Source of the DNA: Nitrospira sp.
Lineage (GTDB): Bacteria; Nitrospirota; Nitrospiria; Nitrospirales; Nitrospiraceae
DNA length: 64,000 nucleotides
Reading direction: 5' to 3'
Assembly (NCBI GenBank): GCA_030653545.1
Contig: JAURZE010000024.1
Span: forward strand, 186,001-250,000
How positions within the stretch are numbered: the stretch's first letter is position 1; every line of letters starts with the position of its first letter. Below, piece after piece: positions 6,365 to 44,064 of this stretch. The position numbers and the translations under genes were made by a program. The notes beneath the pieces were generated by a model. It made no database searches, was not told where the DNA came from, and saw only the letters and a list, made by a program, of their open reading frames with translations.

Positions 6365-6634
6365 ATGGACACTGAAGACAACGTCATCAATGAGCTCCTC
6401 GCAGAGATCTCCGGTCTGATCACACAATACCCCAAGGCGATTGAGCGGCGCGCGGCGCAAATCCAAGCCTCTGGGAAAGATCCTGAACTCGTCGATAAAC
6501 TCGTCAAAGCGGCCGATACGATGCGGGATAGCGGGAATCTTTACCTGACCTGGGCGAAGCACTATGCCGCGTTAGCCGACGGCAATACGGATGCTTCTTC
6601 AGACGAAGATGAAACTGATGACTTTGACGTCTAA
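6365..6634 (+). CDS. Small acidic conserved hypothetical protein
   Basis: An 89-residue protein, predicted helical, with a very acidic C terminus (DASSDEDETDDFDV). An AGAGGA ribosome site precedes the ATG by a good distance, and the codon use matches the neighbours. I do not recognise a family. The helical segment DKLVKAADTMRDSGNLYLTWAKHYAAL could be a protein-binding element. It lies between the OFOR terminator and a tRNA gene, so it is probably its own transcription unit. Confidence 0.6.
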   Translation: MDTEDNVINELLAEISGLITQYPKAIERRAAQIQASGKDPELVDKLVKAADTMRDSGNLYLTWAKHYAALADGNTDASSDEDETDDFDV

Positions 6635-6698
6635 AAAAGACTCCCCCTCTGCAAGAAGTTTTGCTAGAATGGATCCCGCTTCCATGTGAACTCTCCGT

Positions 6699-6774
6699 TC
6701 CCCGGTAGCTCAGTTGGTAGAGCAGCCGGCTGTTAACCGGCTGGTCGCAGGTTCGAGTCCTGCCCGGGGAGCCA
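6699..6774 (+). tRNA. tRNA-Asn (GTT)
   Basis: A full cloverleaf can be drawn: acceptor TCCCCGG pairs with CCGGGGA, and the D-loop AGTTGGTAGA and T-loop GTTCGAGTCC are present. The anticodon GTT is at 6732-6734 in loop CTGTTAA. The discriminator G (6771) is followed by an encoded CCA (6772-6774). Confidence 0.97.
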
Positions 6775-8649: not shown

Positions 8650-9108
8650 CTAGGCGGCTCTCTTCAATCGGCGGGGAGCAGTCGCAGCGACAAGCGGGGC
8701 ACAGGTTCTGACCCAGGTCAGAATGAGCCAGGCAATGGCAGACACAATTCCCACGATAAACATCCAGTTATAGATTCCCTTGGCGAACTTATTCAGAAAC
8801 GGGCTACCCACCAGCAACAGGACCCCGTAGGCCAAAATCACCGTGACCAGCGTCGTGACCGGAAGAATCAACGCCCGATAGGGCGAGAGCCATTTCCACT
8901 CCTCGGGAGGATCGGCCGCCAACTGGCGCGCACCAAGCCAGCCGAGGGCAATAGTGCAACCGTACCCGAGGAACTGGACCAGATCGGAAGCAGCTAACTT
9001 TCCCACGGCCGTTTCACGAAACAGCGGAACTTGCCCGAGAATCAGGGCGAACGCACACGAAAGCATCATCGCCACACCATATTGCATCATCCACGTCCGT
9101 GCTTTCAT
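8650..9108 (-). CDS. Hypothetical membrane protein
   Basis: A 152-residue protein with four likely membrane helices (residues about 6-24, 35-56, 75-97 and 105-128) and a basic, alanine-rich C terminus. A frame can be opened 51 nt upstream, but AGGAGG lies 6 nt before the ATG at 9108, so that start is chosen. I recognise no family. It stands alone between the YheT-like gene and the proteasome operon. Confidence 0.65.
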   Translation of the reverse strand: MKARTWMMQYGVAMMLSCAFALILGQVPLFRETAVGKLAASDLVQFLGYGCTIALGWLGARQLAADPPEEWKWLSPYRALILPVTTLVTVILAYGVLLLVGSPFLNKFAKGIYNWMFIVGIVSAIAWLILTWVRTCAPLVAATAPRRLKRAA

Positions 9109-9230
9109 CGTAGACCTCCTGCTGGTCGCGGGAAGAATCACCCGTGCCGTAACAAGCATATCATTCCACCGGCGATTTCATAGAATCAACGTGTTATGCG
9201 CGCACGCGGTGAGCCTGAGTCACGGTCCGG

Positions 9231-10715
9231 TCAGATGGATTGGAGATAGGTGCGAACGTCCTGGACATAGGTTTTGAAGGGATCGGGCATTGGGAACGGG
9301 GTACGCCCGTTGACCTGGAAAATCGACCAATTGATGACATAGGCCGGGAAGAATCCCTGGTCCTGAGTCTGATCCTCAAAGGCCTCAGGTGAACCCGCCG
9401 CTAGGATATGGCGAACCAGCTCTCCCCGGCCGAAGGCGCGCGTGTTGCGTGGAGGATGTTCCATCGCCAGCGCAATCGCCTTGTCCGTCGTCATGCGAGG
9501 CACCCGCCCCTCTTCGAGCAGCCCGAAATAGAGACCACGGTCCGCATGCAGATTATGATATTCGAGATCGAGACTCTTGAGCGCCGGATCCTGCCAATCC
9601 AGCTGTTCGGCCTCGCGAAAGGATTCGAGTAGCCACAATTTTGAGGCCCAGTCGACCCGGCCGACCAGCTTGGCATAGTCGCCGCGCAAATCCGTCAGAA
9701 CCGATTCCCACTGGTCGAGCACCCAGTCCGTTTCCTCATCCTGCCCGGCGTAGGCCTCTCGTGCTGCCGCGAGAAATTGCTCTTGAATATCGATCGCCGA
9801 GATTGTCTTGCCCGACTGCAACCGCACAATCCACTGGCGCTCTTGATCCTGCGAGATTTCTTGCAGCGTTTCGACCGGCTCGTCGAGCTCCACGCCGGCC
9901 GGCGCCTTTCCCTCTTCGATCAGCTGCAACACCAGGCCCGTCGTGCCCATTTTGAGCGCCGTGGCCACTTCGGCCATATTGGAATCGCCGAGAAGCAGGT
10001 GAATGCGCCGGTATTGATTGGGATCCGCCAACGGCTCGTCCCGCGTGTTCACGATCGCGCGGTTCTGCTGCACCCACTCGAAGAAATCGTTCACGATATG
10101 ATCGGCCCGCTGCGAAATCTGGAACGGCATCAAGGTCTGGGAGGACCGTTGCCGAAGCGCCCCACGCGGCACAATCAGGCGATCCACCTGAATCCAGGCA
10201 TCCTGCGGATTCGCCGCGCCGATACGGCCGGATCCGGTGAAAATCTGTCTGGTAACCAGAAAGGTCACGAGAGGACTCAACCCCCTCCGGCTGAAGGGAA
10301 ACCGGCGGGTGACCAGATAGTTCTCGTGCGATCCAAAGGTTGCGTCCGTTTCATGATCGATATTGTTCTTGATGAGCGAAATGGTCTCGCCGAACCCCAA
10401 GGCCTCGATCGCTTCCTGTAGTAATTGATCCCCGGCCCGATCGACCGCGACGAGATCAACGAGCGACTGACATTCGGGCGAGGCATATTCGAGGTGCCCC
10501 ATGTCGAGATACATCCGCCCGGCATTCGTGAGGAAGCCCCCGTTCCCGGGAGGCTCATCATGCCCGCGATGGTGCAGGTCGAGCACCCCTCGGTGCTGAA
10601 CCTGGAACAGATAATCCCGGATCTGGTTGGCAAACCATGTCGGGGAGTGATCGGGCCGATCCTGATTGACGAGAAGTCCGTACTCCGTTTCAAGCCCGAA
10701 TATCCGGTTCAGCAT
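9231..10715 (-). CDS. pafA: PafA-like ligase of the UBact/Pup system
   Basis: A 494-residue member of the PafA/Dop carboxylate-amine ligase family (glutamine-synthetase-like). Visible family motifs are IFGLETEYGLL with the Mg/ATP-binding glutamate, GHLEYASPEC, KNNIDHETDATFGSHENYL, ISQRADHI, NTRDEPLA and YRRIHLLLGDSNMAE. It lacks the RWDY...DARGF insertion that marks the Dop paralogue encoded upstream, so it is assigned as the ligase that joins the modifier's C-terminal Glu to lysines on target proteins. It is the last gene of the proteasome operon. The assignment over a second Dop-like role rests on this motif difference and on the operon already having a Dop. Confidence 0.8.
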   Translation of the reverse strand: MLNRIFGLETEYGLLVNQDRPDHSPTWFANQIRDYLFQVQHRGVLDLHHRGHDEPPGNGGFLTNAGRMYLDMGHLEYASPECQSLVDLVAVDRAGDQLLQEAIEALGFGETISLIKNNIDHETDATFGSHENYLVTRRFPFSRRGLSPLVTFLVTRQIFTGSGRIGAANPQDAWIQVDRLIVPRGALRQRSSQTLMPFQISQRADHIVNDFFEWVQQNRAIVNTRDEPLADPNQYRRIHLLLGDSNMAEVATALKMGTTGLVLQLIEEGKAPAGVELDEPVETLQEISQDQERQWIVRLQSGKTISAIDIQEQFLAAAREAYAGQDEETDWVLDQWESVLTDLRGDYAKLVGRVDWASKLWLLESFREAEQLDWQDPALKSLDLEYHNLHADRGLYFGLLEEGRVPRMTTDKAIALAMEHPPRNTRAFGRGELVRHILAAGSPEAFEDQTQDQGFFPAYVINWSIFQVNGRTPFPMPDPFKTYVQDVRTYLQSI

Positions 10716-10852
10716 GTTGGCGCGCCCCTATCGTACGCGCGAACTCGATGATCATACATCTGGCTGGCACCCCACGCCGGCGAGTGCTCGGGGCCTTCCC
10801 GATACACCAATAGTCCGTACTCCGTTTCAAGCCAGCACATACGGTTCAGCAT
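10709..10852 (-). pseudogene. Short ORF copying the start of pafA, at the psmA/pafA junction
   Basis: A 47-codon open frame opens MLNR-x3-LETEYGLLV and then continues EHSPAW and ASQ. The true PafA start reads MLNR-x3-LETEYGLLV, DHSPTW, ANQ in the same places, so this is a degenerate copy of the first 30 or so codons. Its ATG comes one base after the psmA stop (TAATATG), and its TGA lies inside the first codons of pafA (ATGCTGA). It is thus positioned for translational coupling on both sides. It is either a remnant of a junction duplication or a coupling peptide. Confidence 0.75.
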
Positions 10853-10853
10853 A

Positions 10854-11678
10854 TTAGCGATTCACGCCGGTCTGAAAGTCACCGGGAAGCAAGCGCGCGA
10901 GTTCGGCCGGCTTCAGCGCACGATACTTTGAGGAACCGACCTGCTGCCGGTCCAAGACCGCGCATTCCAGCGTCTTATCGGCCAGCACCTCACGCAGATG
11001 CGCGAGCAACGCGGCCTGATCAGGAATCGATGCAACCGCTTCTCGACGAGTCTCCTGCCCTCCATCAGCCGGCACCTCTGCCGAATCCTGTTGATGCGCG
11101 AGCGACCCGATTGCCCAGGTACGCAACGCCAGCACTAAACCCTGCTCAAGCGTGCAGGGAGACGGCTTCTGCGCCTTCAGATACTCTTGCATCCGCGCTT
11201 GTGCCTGCTTCGTCGCGGCCAGCACGGCATACTCCTTGAGCTCTTCAAACGTTCCGTCATAGTTGATCGTGAGCAGCGTATCCTTCTCCGGTTTCTGGCT
11301 CAACTCGGCCAGCAGAATCCTGACGATGAACGGCGCCTTATAGACTTCTTCGAAGGCCTGCTTGATGACCGGAGCAATTCCGTATTTCACCAGGCGCGAA
11401 CCGGTCACGTCGGACGGCGATCGATTAAACCCCTCGGTGTGCGCCATCTCCAATAGACTGAACCGGAGTTTTTCCAGATCTGCCGGATGCCCCATGCCTC
11501 CCAGAGCGATGCGGTCATAAATCTCGTACAACTTCGACGTTCCCTTGCTGACCGTCGTCAGGAGCAGGCCCCCGTCGTAGCCCAGCGCCACCACAGGACT
11601 CCCCTGCCTGAACTGCTCATCGAGATAGGTCCGACGATTGCCGACCGCTTCGACCCACCGGTACGGTTCTTCATACAT
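10854..11678 (-). CDS. psmA: Proteasome alpha subunit
   Basis: A 274-residue 20S alpha subunit. It has VVALGYDGGLLLTTVSKG in place of the catalytic-subunit start, KLYEIYDRIALGGMGHPAD, the alpha-family DVTGSRLVKYGIAP helix and TINYDGTFEELKEYAVLA. The C terminus carries an acidic, low-complexity insert (QDSAEVPADGGQETRREA) followed by a last strand. Alpha rings cap the beta rings and gate the chamber. The start ATG overlaps the stop of the short junction ORF before it. The upstream AAGGTGG is both its likely ribosome site and a copy of the psmB 3' end. Confidence 0.9.
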   Translation of the reverse strand: MYEEPYRWVEAVGNRRTYLDEQFRQGSPVVALGYDGGLLLTTVSKGTSKLYEIYDRIALGGMGHPADLEKLRFSLLEMAHTEGFNRSPSDVTGSRLVKYGIAPVIKQAFEEVYKAPFIVRILLAELSQKPEKDTLLTINYDGTFEELKEYAVLAATKQAQARMQEYLKAQKPSPCTLEQGLVLALRTWAIGSLAHQQDSAEVPADGGQETRREAVASIPDQAALLAHLREVLADKTLECAVLDRQQVGSSKYRALKPAELARLLPGDFQTGVNR

Positions 11679-11775
11679 GGCGCACCACCTTAGATTCGCA
11701 AGATAGATTCAATCGACTCTTACCCGTCCGGCAACTGCCGACTGATCCAAGCCATCGACAGCGTGCTTCATGCAT
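11671..11775 (-). pseudogene. Short ORF copying the psmA start and psmB end, at the psmB/psmA junction
   Basis: A 34-codon frame begins MHEARCRWLGSVGSCRTG, which lines up with the psmA start MYEEPYRWVEAVGNRRTY, and ends ESKVVRHV, which copies the psmB C terminus ESKVVRHA. Its ATG overlaps the psmB stop (ATGCATGA) and its TGA overlaps the psmA ATG (ATGTATGA). The same 16-nt block CATGGCGCACCACCTT appears at both ends on the plus strand. It has the same layout as the ORF at the next junction. Confidence 0.78.
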
Positions 11776-12541
11776 GGCGCACCACCTTGGACTCAAAGAG
11801 GGGTTTCAACCGGTCGTCAGGAACTATCCGCACTCCGTCTTGCGTAATTAATTTGATAATCGGATAGAGGCTGGACTCGCGATTGACGCCGCCCGTGGCC
11901 GAATCAAACTCGGCGGCACTGGTTAAGAGACGCAACGCCTGCACGGTCGCCTCTTCCTCCGTCATCGTAGCCAGGGAGCGCTCGCCCCAGGTGTTCACAT
12001 AGTGCAGAATGCCGCGGATCGTCGGCGATCCGGATCCCGACACCGCATAATCAACCCCTTCGAACTCAGCGCCGAGAATGTCGTAGAAAAATATCTTGGC
12101 CGCGCCCTGTTCGAAATCGTACCCGGCAAACACCGGCACCACGGCGCCGGTTCCCGCCAAGGCCGCCGGCACATTCTCCTTCAAGAGCTTCGATACCGCA
12201 CGCAGCTTCCCCTCAAAGCTCAACTCCTGAAGCTGAGTCCGCCGGTAGTATTTGAACGAGTGCTCCAATATCCGCACCATCTCATAGGCCGTAGCAGGAA
12301 CCCCCGCGATGGCCATGACACTATGACGGTCGATTTCGAGGACCTTGTCCGTCCGATCGTACATCACCATGTTGCCGGCCGTCGCTCGGCGATCCCCAGC
12401 GACGAGGACGCCATCGCGATACTTGAACGCGAGAATCGTCGTCGCGCTCGGCAGATCGACTCCCGCTCCGGCAACCGTCGGCTGGCCGAATTGATAGCCC
12501 TGCTCCTTCAACAGCTGAAACAAATCTCCCTGCATCCCCAT
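11768..12541 (-). CDS. psmB: Proteasome beta subunit (catalytic)
   Basis: A 257-residue beta subunit with a 33-residue propeptide that ends before TTILAFKYRDGVLVAGDRRA. Thr34 is the predicted N-terminal nucleophile after self-cleavage. The usual Asp and Arg (GDRRAT) and the catalytic lysine (TDKVLEI) follow, and the SGSGS and DSATGG motifs of the family are present. It forms the proteolytic rings of the 20S core. The ATG at 12541 is followed by another at 12535; either may be used. It is separated from the modifier gene by a 188-nt gap holding a dispersed repeat, which is unusual in this tightly packed operon. Confidence 0.93.
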   Translation of the reverse strand: MGMQGDLFQLLKEQGYQFGQPTVAGAGVDLPSATTILAFKYRDGVLVAGDRRATAGNMVMYDRTDKVLEIDRHSVMAIAGVPATAYEMVRILEHSFKYYRRTQLQELSFEGKLRAVSKLLKENVPAALAGTGAVVPVFAGYDFEQGAAKIFFYDILGAEFEGVDYAVSGSGSPTIRGILHYVNTWGERSLATMTEEEATVQALRLLTSAAEFDSATGGVNRESSLYPIIKLITQDGVRIVPDDRLKPLFESKVVRHA

Positions 12542-12605
12542 GTCACCACCACGCCTTCCTGGTTTACTCTCCCTTTTCCTTCAAGACGGGACGCCGGGGT
12601 TAGGG

Positions 12606-12710
12606 CTCACTGCGCGCGTCCACCGAGGGCCTACGCCTATTTCACCCACCCGCCCTCGCGGCGCCAAGACGCCGCGTTTTCCCAACGGGCCGCGCGTTGC
12701 GCGAGCACAA
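12606..12710. repeat. Dispersed GC-rich repeat, copy 1
   Basis: The gap between UBact and psmB holds CTGCGCGCGTCCA-CGAGG (12609-12628) and CCGCGCGTTGCGCGAGCACA (12690-12709). The same two blocks, in the same order and orientation but closer together, recur at 39207-39258, and decayed forms at about 38999 and 39737. This points to a genome-wide intergenic repeat. Confidence 0.7.
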
Positions 12711-12729
12711 GCCCTGATTCGGTGCCCCG

Positions 12730-12924
12730 TCACTCCCCCGTCCGCTGTCGGTACCGCTCAGCCTGCTTCGGATCGACCTTCTTCATCCGCTTCATCAAAC
12801 TGTCCTTGTCTGGCGACCCGGTATCGGGACGCCGCGGCCCGCCGCCCTCTTCCGACGGGCTCGGCGCCTTCGGCATCGGATCAACCGGTCCCTCCCGTCG
12901 CTCAGGCATCATCTGGTAGATCAT
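12730..12924 (-). CDS. ubact: UBact, Pup-like protein modifier
   Basis: A 64-residue, highly charged, proline-rich protein predicted to be disordered, with MPERREGP near the N terminus and a C terminus of YRQRTGE. The ending R-T-G-E fits the R-[TS]-G-[EQ] signature I recall for UBact, the Pup relative of Nitrospirota and other Gram-negative phyla. Because the last residue is Glu rather than Gln, no deamidation should be needed before ligation. Its ATG overlaps the Dop stop by 4 nt (ATGA), and the ligase, ATPase and proteasome genes are in the same operon. It should tag proteins for degradation by the proteasome encoded next to it. Confidence 0.88.
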   Translation of the reverse strand: MIYQMMPERREGPVDPMPKAPSPSEEGGGPRRPDTGSPDKDSLMKRMKKVDPKQAERYRQRTGE

Positions 12925-14450
12925 GACTGTGATTCCTTTCTTATCCTCCAGGCAGCCACGGCCTCGGCCGGAGAGGCCGCCTGTTCAAAAATCTCGGCAC
13001 AGACCCGCACCTCGATCGGATCGAACAGGTCGCCCATCTCCAGCGTCTTGCCCCTTAACCCGCCTGAGAACTGAATACGCTCCCACTGCATCGACTTGAT
13101 CTGATCGGGAAACCGCCGCACACACAGGCCCCGCAACCCACCGCGGGTATCGTGAGGACCGGCGGACAGGGCCTGCTCAATGTCGGCCTCCGTGGTCATA
13201 CGCCAGGCCTTCCCCTCGGCTTCCAGCCCGAGGTACAGTCCGCGGTCGGCGTTCAGATTGTGGTACTCGAGATCCAGACTCGCCAGCCAGGGATCATCCC
13301 AGCCGATCCGCTCTTCCCGTACAAAGGTCTCCAGCAACCACAACTTCGTCACCCAATCGAGCTTACCGACCAATTGACTGCGATCCTGCTTGAGCAGCCC
13401 CAGGGTCTCACCCCATTCGCGCAGCACCCAGTCCGTCTCGGCATCCGCGCCGGCCAGCATGCGCCTGGCTGCCGTATAGTACTGTTCCTGAATGTCCAGA
13501 CCGGAAAGAGCCGGCCCCTGCTTCTGGCGCACGGTCGCCTTGAGGTCGGGATCCCGCGAAATCTGCTTCACCGCCGAAACCGGATCGGCCAGTTCAATCG
13601 CAGGTGCAGCCCCCCGATCGATCAACTCCAGTACCAATTGCGTTGTGCCGACCTTCAACGCCGTCGCATACTCGCACATATTCGCATCGCCGATGATCAG
13701 ATGCAGCCGTCGATACTTCTCCCGAACGGCGTGCGGCTCATCCCTGGTATTGAGAATGGGCCGGTTATGCATCGTATCGACGCTCAGATCCGTCTCCATG
13801 AAATCGGCCCGCTGTGAGAGCTGATACTGCCCGGGAACGAAACCGCTCTCCTGCGCCTCGATACCGACTTTACCGGCACCAGCAATCACCTGACGACTGA
13901 CTAAGAACGGCAGGAGACCTGCGACCAGTTGCTGAAACGGGATTGAGCGCGAGACGAGATAGTTGTCATGGCAGCCATAACTATGGCCATGGAGATCGGT
14001 ATTGTTCTTATAGAGCTGCACATGCGGACCACCAAGGGTTCGATTCCTCCGCTCGGCCGCGCGTTGCACCACCCGCTCTCCCGCTCGATCGTGCGCGAGC
14101 AAATCGCGCAAGGTCCGACATTCGGGGCTGGAATACTCCGGGTGCGTATGGTCGTTGTAGAAGCGGGCGCCGTTCGGCAGCACCAGGTCGCTTTTCATCT
14201 CATGAAATGAAAAGGGCCGGTGCGCATCGATCTTGGCGAAGTCGTCTTCTTCTTTATCCTGTTGGAGCCCGGACACCCGAAACCCCCGGGCATCATCGTG
14301 CGGATCTTCTCCGCCATAATCCCAGCGCCGTTCGAACGACGCCGTCAGATGCGCGCGCACCAGCTCCATGGACTCGACGACCGGATCTACCTCATCGAGA
14401 TCCTCGCGCGTAATCCCGTACTCTGTTTCTATGCCGAAGAGACGCAACAT
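12921..14450 (-). CDS. dop: Dop-like depupylase/deamidase of the UBact system
   Basis: A 509-residue member of the PafA/Dop family. It starts MLRLFGIETEYGI; the frame stays open 34 codons further up, but the ATG at 14450 overlaps the stop of the ATPase gene (TAATG) and matches the family start. The RRWDYGGEDPHDDARGF stretch near residue 42-58 is the Dop-type insertion, followed by LPNGARFYNDHTHPEYSSPEC, YKNNTDLHGHSYGCHDNYL, LSQRADFME and NTRDEPHA. Dop removes the modifier from targets. With a modifier ending in Glu, the deamidase activity is not required, so isopeptide cleavage is the likely role. Confidence 0.86.
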   Translation of the reverse strand: MLRLFGIETEYGITREDLDEVDPVVESMELVRAHLTASFERRWDYGGEDPHDDARGFRVSGLQQDKEEDDFAKIDAHRPFSFHEMKSDLVLPNGARFYNDHTHPEYSSPECRTLRDLLAHDRAGERVVQRAAERRNRTLGGPHVQLYKNNTDLHGHSYGCHDNYLVSRSIPFQQLVAGLLPFLVSRQVIAGAGKVGIEAQESGFVPGQYQLSQRADFMETDLSVDTMHNRPILNTRDEPHAVREKYRRLHLIIGDANMCEYATALKVGTTQLVLELIDRGAAPAIELADPVSAVKQISRDPDLKATVRQKQGPALSGLDIQEQYYTAARRMLAGADAETDWVLREWGETLGLLKQDRSQLVGKLDWVTKLWLLETFVREERIGWDDPWLASLDLEYHNLNADRGLYLGLEAEGKAWRMTTEADIEQALSAGPHDTRGGLRGLCVRRFPDQIKSMQWERIQFSGGLRGKTLEMGDLFDPIEVRVCAEIFEQAASPAEAVAAWRIRKESQS

Positions 14451-16192
14451 TAGATAATCTGATTGATCAAGCGCTCTTCCGTCTGCCGACCGCGCCGGAA
14501 GGACGACACGCCGACGACCTGCTCCGGATGATGGTCGAGCAGCTTCAACCATTCTTCCGCGGCATCATCGGGCGGCAGCATCTCCCCTTCTCGGAACTCC
14601 TCCAACACGGACTCGGAGAGATCTTTCGCGAGAAGCCCTGCCGACTGGCCGGATTGGATCATGCGATCGATCGCCTTTTCCTTCGCGCGCTGGACAATGG
14701 AGGAAAGAATCGCCCCGCTTACGAGATCGCCCCGATAGAGTACCTTGTTCTGGCCGCTCCGGAGGCGGATGGAGAGCAACCGGTTCTCATCCGTCCGTTT
14801 GTAAATCTGGTCGATCACCTCATCGGCCAGCGAGACAAAGGCCTTCGCCTTGTCCCCGCCTCGTTCGGCCACCAGCGCCTGATCCAGCGGTAACTCGTTG
14901 GTCAGATAGACTTTCAAAATCTCGGCGGCCGATTCCCGATTCGGGCGGCTGACCTTGATCTTGCGATCGATGCGTCCCGGACGCAGTACGGCGGGATCGA
15001 TCAGATCCGGCCGATTCGACGCGAGAATGATCACGACATCCCGCAACGATTCGATCCCGTCCATCTCTGAGCAAAACATCGGAACCAGCGTGCTCGAAAT
15101 ATTGAACGAACGCGACGCCCGTCTCGTCCCTAGAATCGACTCGGCTTCGTCGATGAAAATAAACGGGAGCGCTCCCTCACGGCGGCGGGCTCTGGCCTTG
15201 GCGAAAAGGTCGCGCACCATCCGCTCCGACTCGCCGAGCCACATATTCAGAATCTCGGGCCCTTTGATATGGAGGAATGCGCCGCCGGTGATCGCAGGCA
15301 ACGTCTCTGTTTTCCCGCCGGCAGCCATCGACTCGCTCACGAGCTTCGAGAGACTGGCTGCGGCAGCCTGGCCGATCAGTGTTTTCCCGCAGCCCGGCGG
15401 GCCATAGAGCAGGAACCCCTTGGGTTGCGTGAACTTGAACTGCTGGAACGTCTCCGCATGCAGCAAGGGGTATTCGATCGCCTTGCGAATCGCGCTGATC
15501 GCCTCCTGCTGGCCGCCGATCTGCTCCCACGTGACCGTCGGCACTTCGTCGAGGACATGGGTCTTGGCTTTCCGGTCCTCCAGCTTCTCGATTGCAATCC
15601 GGTGGCCCGGGTCGATCCGCAATTCATCGCCGGCCTTCAGCTCCACCCCCACAAGGTCGCTCGACCGCTGGAGGATCATGGATTGGCGGCCCATCTCCTG
15701 CTCGAAACGCAACCGCCCGTCCGGCAATGCTTCCGTCAACTTGAGCACCGGCCCGTTCAGGTCGTAGCCCAGCGTCTTGATGACCGCATAGGCTTCGTTC
15801 ACGAGAATTTGCGCACCGATCTTTAAGTCCGCATTCGCCACACGGGGATCCACATTCGCATAATACTCGGCCCCGCCGACGATGATCCTCGCCAGGCCTT
15901 CGCCCGGCAGATCGAGCAACGTGCCGATCCGGTTGGCCGGCGCCGTCAGCTTCGCCACGACCTCGCTGATTTTTTTGAATTCGGCCTCCCGTTGCTGCTG
16001 ACTGGCGGCCGCCAGCATGACGGAGTGGCGGAGCTTGTAGAGGATCTGTTGGCGCGGATCGTTCTCAGGAAAAGAGGCGAGGCATTGTTCGATCAACTCA
16101 AGCGGGTCGGGAGTGGTTGAGCCCGTCCGCTTTCCTGCTCCCGCGCCGGATGTGCCGGTCTGCCCTATATCGTCTGGTCGGTGGTCGCTCAT
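14450..16192 (-). CDS. arc: ARC/Mpa-type proteasomal AAA ATPase
   Basis: A 580-residue unfoldase. An N-terminal helical/coiled-coil part (about 45-85) is followed by OB-type domains and one AAA module with Walker A GPPGCGKT, Walker B FIFIDEAES, and the sensor and arginine-finger region RPDLIDPAVLRPGRID. It should recognise tagged proteins through the coiled coil and thread them into the 20S core. The C terminus ends LINQII. Actinobacterial Mpa ends in GQYL, with the tyrosine that docks into the alpha ring, so the docking tail is different or absent here. It is the first gene of the operon and has a GGAG ribosome site. Confidence 0.9.
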   Translation of the reverse strand: MSDHRPDDIGQTGTSGAGAGKRTGSTTPDPLELIEQCLASFPENDPRQQILYKLRHSVMLAAASQQQREAEFKKISEVVAKLTAPANRIGTLLDLPGEGLARIIVGGAEYYANVDPRVANADLKIGAQILVNEAYAVIKTLGYDLNGPVLKLTEALPDGRLRFEQEMGRQSMILQRSSDLVGVELKAGDELRIDPGHRIAIEKLEDRKAKTHVLDEVPTVTWEQIGGQQEAISAIRKAIEYPLLHAETFQQFKFTQPKGFLLYGPPGCGKTLIGQAAAASLSKLVSESMAAGGKTETLPAITGGAFLHIKGPEILNMWLGESERMVRDLFAKARARRREGALPFIFIDEAESILGTRRASRSFNISSTLVPMFCSEMDGIESLRDVVIILASNRPDLIDPAVLRPGRIDRKIKVSRPNRESAAEILKVYLTNELPLDQALVAERGGDKAKAFVSLADEVIDQIYKRTDENRLLSIRLRSGQNKVLYRGDLVSGAILSSIVQRAKEKAIDRMIQSGQSAGLLAKDLSESVLEEFREGEMLPPDDAAEEWLKLLDHHPEQVVGVSSFRRGRQTEERLINQII

Positions 16193-43816: not shown

Positions 43817-43861
43817 CGGACGCGAGACGAGAACAGAAACGAAGAGAGTAGAAAGAGAAGG

Positions 43862-44064
43862 AAAGATGGAGCCGACGACCCGGATTGAACGGAGCAACCT
43901 GTCATCGGTTCGGCCCTGAAACCTGCCTCACCGATTCCTACAAAGGGGGTCAACCACCTTGTACGATCCCCACGAAGGGGGCGCACCCCCTTCGAATCCT
44001 CCGCAGTTCGCCCGTTCAATGATTTGGAGAGGAAAAGATGGAGCCGACGACCCGGATTGAACGG
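43862..44064. repeat. Duplicated 3' end of tRNA-Thr
   Basis: A 31-nt block at 43862-43892 is repeated exactly at 44034-44064. The second copy is the 3' end (acceptor and T-arm) of the tRNA-Thr gene; the first is a free fragment, and the likeness continues imperfectly for another 10 nt. A GC-rich perfect hairpin (CGAAGGGGG with CCCCCTTCG, 43973-43994) lies between. This is what is left by integration at a tRNA 3' end or by a small duplication. Confidence 0.75.

Follow-up and report, generated by a model that had tools for sequence, protein, structure and literature searches.

Among the closest described counterparts of the locus analyzed here is the UBact-proteasome operon of Nitrospira, which combines the families UBact (PF20513), Pup_ligase (PF03136), and Proteasome (PF00227) in the gene order dop-ubact-prcB-prcA-pafA. 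Two further known systems are relevant to its gene borders. One is termination-reinitiation coupling between consecutive genes, which requires very short intergenic distances; indeed, approximately 20 nt between genes nearly abolished termination-reinitiation in reporter tests (PMC10666635). The other is the partial tandem duplication of a gene followed by decay, resulting in a pseudogene fragment. A search of one literature collection for the exact phenomenon described below yielded only general papers on coupling and on duplication.

The window, i.e. the whole stretch of 64,000 nucleotides (64 kb) that was analyzed, originates from a Nitrospira sp. genome (GCA_030653545.1, contig JAURZE010000024.1; genome G000 in the comparisons below) and contains this operon in the same order, with all genes on the minus strand (Table 1). 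UBact, the pair of Pup_ligase proteins, and the proteasome alpha and beta subunits formed a single cluster according to Pfam and NCBIfam, and the gene names proposed by a sequence-only reading of this DNA were hence correct in kind. The difference from the known operon consists of two tandem copies, one at the prcA/pafA border and one at the prcB/prcA border, which are extras that the genomes examined show in a single Nitrospira group only. As in termination-reinitiation coupling (PMC10666635), consecutive frames make stop/start contacts (ATGCTGA and ATGTATGA) and subunits of one complex are concerned, but here the additional frame duplicates the start of a gene, is not itself a gene, and is not conserved. 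With a pseudogene fragment, the pafA copy shares its local position beside the source, its strand, its divergence, a single origin, its truncation, its breakage in one lineage, and its patchy presence. It differs from such a fragment in lying exactly across a tight operon border with both neighbors whole, and in a frame that is still open in three of the four carriers. Elsewhere in this genome, a second proteasome cluster was found (contig C13, approximately 122500-129600; L003 and L004), encompassing genes for an AAA ATPase (Mpa/ARC-like), a Dop/PafA-like protein, proteasome beta and alpha subunits, and another PafA-like protein, the assignments being based on visual inspection and on roughly 40% identity to PafA. 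Its dop-prcB gap is too small for a pup or ubact gene, and loci resembling this cluster are present in many relatives.

Table 1. Features of the dop-ubact-prcB-prcA-pafA region (positions in the window)
Feature	Position	Strand	Basis or remark
dop-like Pup_ligase family protein	12921..14552	-	Pfam/NCBIfam
ubact, ubiquitin-like modifier	12730..12924	-	PF20513, E 1.3e-21; Pfam/NCBIfam
prcB (psmB), proteasome beta subunit	11768..12541	-	Family match
Repeat D2, upstream member (prcB end and prcA start)	11726..11794	-	
Second tandem copy, 34-aa ORF joining prcA start and prcB end	11671..11775	-	
Repeat D2, downstream member, including duplicated Shine-Dalgarno before true prcA start	11629..11697	-	
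prcA (psmA), proteasome alpha subunit	10854..11678	-	Family match
47-aa ORF in tandem copy of pafA start, ATG start	10709..10852	-	ORF reading, repeat, and relatives
Repeat D1, upstream member (diverged copy of pafA start region)	10747..10859	-	137-nt unit reaches ~10716
AGGGG, Shine-Dalgarno-like stretch before pafA	10725..10729	-	From copied pafA codons 42-44; putative function
Repeat D1, source member (true pafA start)	10610..10722	-	DNA repeat comparison
pafA, full-length Pup/UBact ligase-like protein, 494 aa	9231..10715	-	Pup_ligase, E 4.7e-132

The frame between prcA and pafA encodes MLNRMCWLETEYGLLVYREGPEHSPAWGASQMYDHRVRAYDRGAPTC, whereas the N-terminus of PafA itself is MLNRIFGLETEYGLLVNQDRPDHSPTWFANQIRDYLF. 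That this 47-codon frame copies the start of pafA, as had been read from the sequence, was confirmed at the DNA level by repeat D1, which comprises 113 nt at 76% identity with a spacing of 137 nt and reached an ungapped score of 59, whereas three Markov simulations of 64 kb each gave maxima of 15-17. The copy adjoins its source in the same orientation. The reported layout was found as well: a single base separates the prcA stop codon TAA from the ATG of the frame, and the TGA of the latter overlaps the pafA start in ATGCTGA (10715-10709). No protein family matched the 47-aa frame in Pfam and NCBIfam searches, and an Rfam search of window positions 9000-15000 gave no RNA element.

The claim that a neighboring border carries the same kind of copy held too. 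At the prcB/prcA border, repeat D2 comprises 69 matched nt at 75% identity with a spacing of 97 nt (score 35, against at most 17 in the simulations). The 34-aa frame involved makes the contacts ATGCATGA with prcB and ATGTATGA with prcA; its beginning is PrcA-like (MHEARCRW versus MYEEPYRW) and its end is PrcB-like (ESKVVRHV). A duplicated Shine-Dalgarno sequence (AAGGTGGTG; 11683-11691) is located in front of the true prcA start. A family profile search with the 34-aa frame gave no match.

The repeat control for this genome covered 438 kb. Apart from D1 and D2, no border between genes in this sequence was seen to carry a tandemly copied gene start, all candidate places but one of low identity having been inspected. 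Other local repeats inspected there were a tandem small-gene pair, a protein with internal repeats, and intergenic repeats. The small-gene pair (L176, contig C24, approximately 6410-6730) consists of paralogous frames (KDHFLNFLTW...GPQMF and MNFLMWHLRKGPQMF) sharing 120 nt at 78% identity with a spacing of 195 nt. Within the window, a 38-nt direct repeat of 95% identity (43855-43892 and 44027-44064, 172 nt apart) was found near the end of one gene and in the space beyond it.

To place both copies within the genus, 79 Nitrospira genomes were searched and the border sequences were also read directly; G032, a close relative, was left out because of an assembly break across the region. The whole pafA-border arrangement was present in G000, G093, G025, and G076, and the prcB/prcA arrangement in G000, G093, G065, and G025. 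Neither copy was found in G026, G095, G022, G014, G094, N. moscoviensis (L056), or Ca. N. defluvii (L102). The empty site, in which the prcA stop and the pafA ATG are one base apart, was seen in G026, G065, G095, G022, G014, and G094, and this one-base gap is a usual state in the genus. Furthermore, 80 named loci were compared, N. moscoviensis and N. defluvii being included and N. inopinata not being among those identified. The pafA copy was absent from 78 of the 79 that could be measured at the prcA/pafA border, the sole carrier being L038 (Nitrospira sp. SJ32, same contig as G076), and the prcB/prcA copy was not found in any named locus measured at that border. The sequence-only reading had named a lack of conservation beyond this strain as a point against a role of the copy, and such a lack nearly holds: N. 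moscoviensis and N. defluvii are without it, but three related genomes share it.

Unrelated inserts of 32-222 nt occur at both borders in other Nitrospira, indicating that these borders tolerate insertion. When the inserts of at least 25 nt at both borders were compared with the start of the downstream gene and the end of the upstream gene, none were similar outside this group. Two candidates were rejected, namely an apparent match to the copy in L086, which was an assembly gap of N, and a 204-nt insert in G017 at the same border as the copy, which was unrelated. The inserts of L067 (prcA/pafA border) and L110 (prcB/prcA border) resemble a dispersed palindromic repeat element, with similar GGCCGCAGGGAGCG...GAGAAC cores in both.

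With respect to origin, the four pafA copies grouped together with support 99/98, their clade branching from among the group's native pafA starts, which were also their nearest matches. This indicates one native tandem duplication and no foreign insertion, and a foreign origin of the copy was rejected. The better-preserved copy of G076 is colinear with pafA codons 1-45; the event was accordingly a plain tandem duplication of some 137 nt. End repeats or microhomology were looked for around this 137-nt unit and no clear ones were found. For the 97-nt unit at the other border, GAAGTCC(A)GGTGGTG was seen as such a repeat in G065, with weak support in the other carriers, and this unit may have formed between similar stretches of this kind. 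A shared duplication mechanism, as suggested earlier, is supported in the plain sense, namely two tandem duplications across two gene borders.

The junction frame is very probably a decaying leftover of a single tandem duplication (about 137 nt), with a layout that arose automatically and a peptide that most likely has no function of its own. The duplicated unit began with the start codon of pafA and extended to about codon 45. From genetic reasoning, most tandem duplications inside a gene would not survive; one that spans a border would leave the prcA before it and the pafA after it intact and could therefore persist, which may explain why both scars are at gene borders. A separate 97-nt tandem duplication at the prcB/prcA border carried the strong prcA ribosome-binding site AAGGTGGTG along. 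Points against this explanation are the lack of clear end repeats for the 137-nt unit, the neutral probability of open frames with ATG and the codon differences between the G000 and G076 copies (both given below), and a mild coincidence that it accounts for only in part, namely two scars in one operon with none other seen in 438 kb.

The coupled layout does not require selection. Tandem duplications were made in silico in relatives without the copy, using units of 90-144 nt that started within 30 nt before the pafA ATG, and in 61-82% of them the frame of the copy ended on the second ATG, because the out-of-frame reading meets the TGA in ATGCTGA. A simulated 137-nt unit in G022 stopped at ATGCTGA, as observed, and at the prcB/prcA border the same layout arose in 33-51% of the simulated duplications. 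As the copy starts at the former pafA start, its frame runs from the prcA stop to the pafA start by default, and the coupled layout is a by-product of duplication. Hence, the earlier view that two such junctions are unlikely by chance stands for the repeats, given their scores, but not for the coupled layout.

Since reinitiation is almost lost at intergenic distances of about 20 nt, a dead insertion would presumably leave pafA uncoupled. Translation of the inserted frame, or a ribosome-binding site newly gained by pafA, would prevent this; both are plausible. While the frame is open, ribosomes leaving prcA could translate the copy and re-initiate at pafA, so that the latter would stay coupled. 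In addition, the end of the copy could supply pafA with a GGGG(T)G Shine-Dalgarno-like stretch. The hybrid energy before pafA was -5.6 in G000 and G093 and, with GGGGTG, -8.7 in G076 and G025. Among six close relatives lacking the copy, it was -7.2 in G095 and between -1.5 and -3.8 in the other five. The copy may have a minor role, either as a translation relay or as a donor of the Shine-Dalgarno-like stretch. Either would make the scar nearly harmless, so that the frame could be lost. This is the case for G025, whose copy of 147 nt has CTG in place of ATG and two in-frame TAG codons. In view of these internal stops, the possibility that a programmed frameshift leads from the copy into pafA was set aside.

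Whether the frames were kept by selection bears on two other explanations. According to the first, the duplication created, in one step, a translational relay that carries ribosomes from prcA to pafA and from prcB to prcA and that was kept in part of the clade; the peptide sequence would be irrelevant, while openness and the two stop/start contacts would matter. This agrees with the very short distances needed for coupling (PMC10666635), with the frame, ATG, and stop/start contacts retained in the pafA copies of G000, G093, and G076, all of exactly 138 nt, and with the prcB/prcA copy, which is open in all four carriers with 89 nt between the genes. In a neutral simulation along the copy tree, an open frame with ATG in both the G000/G093 and the G076 lineages had a probability of 0.025-0.07, which also favors a relay, but openness alone is not unusual (both lineages open in 0.17-0.26 of the runs). 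The open frames are compatible with neutrality, and the former values are not strong evidence for selection. Moreover, an open frame with conserved contacts is not shared by all carriers, the G025 copy having neither ATG nor frame; unrelated inserts are found at the same borders elsewhere in the genus; and duplication provides the layout for free. A selected relay is therefore rather unlikely. The second, a functional small protein that mimics the PafA N-terminus, e.g. as a decoy or regulator of the ligase, is barely credible: LETEYGLL is retained in the three open copies, but most of the other sequence diverges, family searches gave no match, and the copy is found in four genomes only, in one of which no peptide can be required, since it lacks ATG and has in-frame stops. 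The pN/pS of 0.45 between the G000 and G076 pafA copies (14 synonymous and 22 non-synonymous differences; one informative pair) leans towards some constraint, and the differences appear, by eye, concentrated in the last third; the prcB/prcA copies gave values of 1.1-2.1 in informative pairs. Selection for short coupling peptides, which the sequence-only reading had proposed, found no support, considering the four carriers, the broken G025 copy, the neutral openness, and the pN/pS above 1 at the prcB/prcA border.

A further explanation concerns prcA, which is flanked by both scars: a foreign prcA segment with overhanging ends, from the prcB end to the pafA start, would have replaced the native gene in a single recombination, the scars being the import boundaries. 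Indeed, the prcA genes of close Nitrospira genomes (L146 of G093 and L148 of G026) seem to have undergone exchange: over most of the second half of prcA, G093 and G026 are 94-98% identical, whereas G000 and G093 are only 86-90% identical there, even though these two genomes are sisters in the rest of the operon. Similarly, the duplicated prcB end in G025 reads ESKVV, compared with ETKVS at its own prcB end. Yet, the scars occur separately (the prcB/prcA copy without the pafA copy in G065, and the reverse in G076), which implies that two events took place, or that a single one was followed by independent losses; carriers and non-carriers are not separated in the prcA tree; and the copies nest among native pafA starts. 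A single import is thus disfavored and quite improbable. Tandem duplication, as preferred above, is compatible with the patchy presence of the copies, which is easy to understand as the region recombines; within the group, the pafA copy has since been lost or exchanged by recombination.

The copy at the pafA border is a real evolutionary scar, though probably an ordinary one. It illustrates that a suggestive coupled mini-ORF can arise without selection when a duplication spans the junction of two closely spaced or overlapping genes. In addition, the small natural series of no copy, open copy, and broken copy in these Nitrospira genomes bears on the dependence of pafA and prcA on translational coupling.
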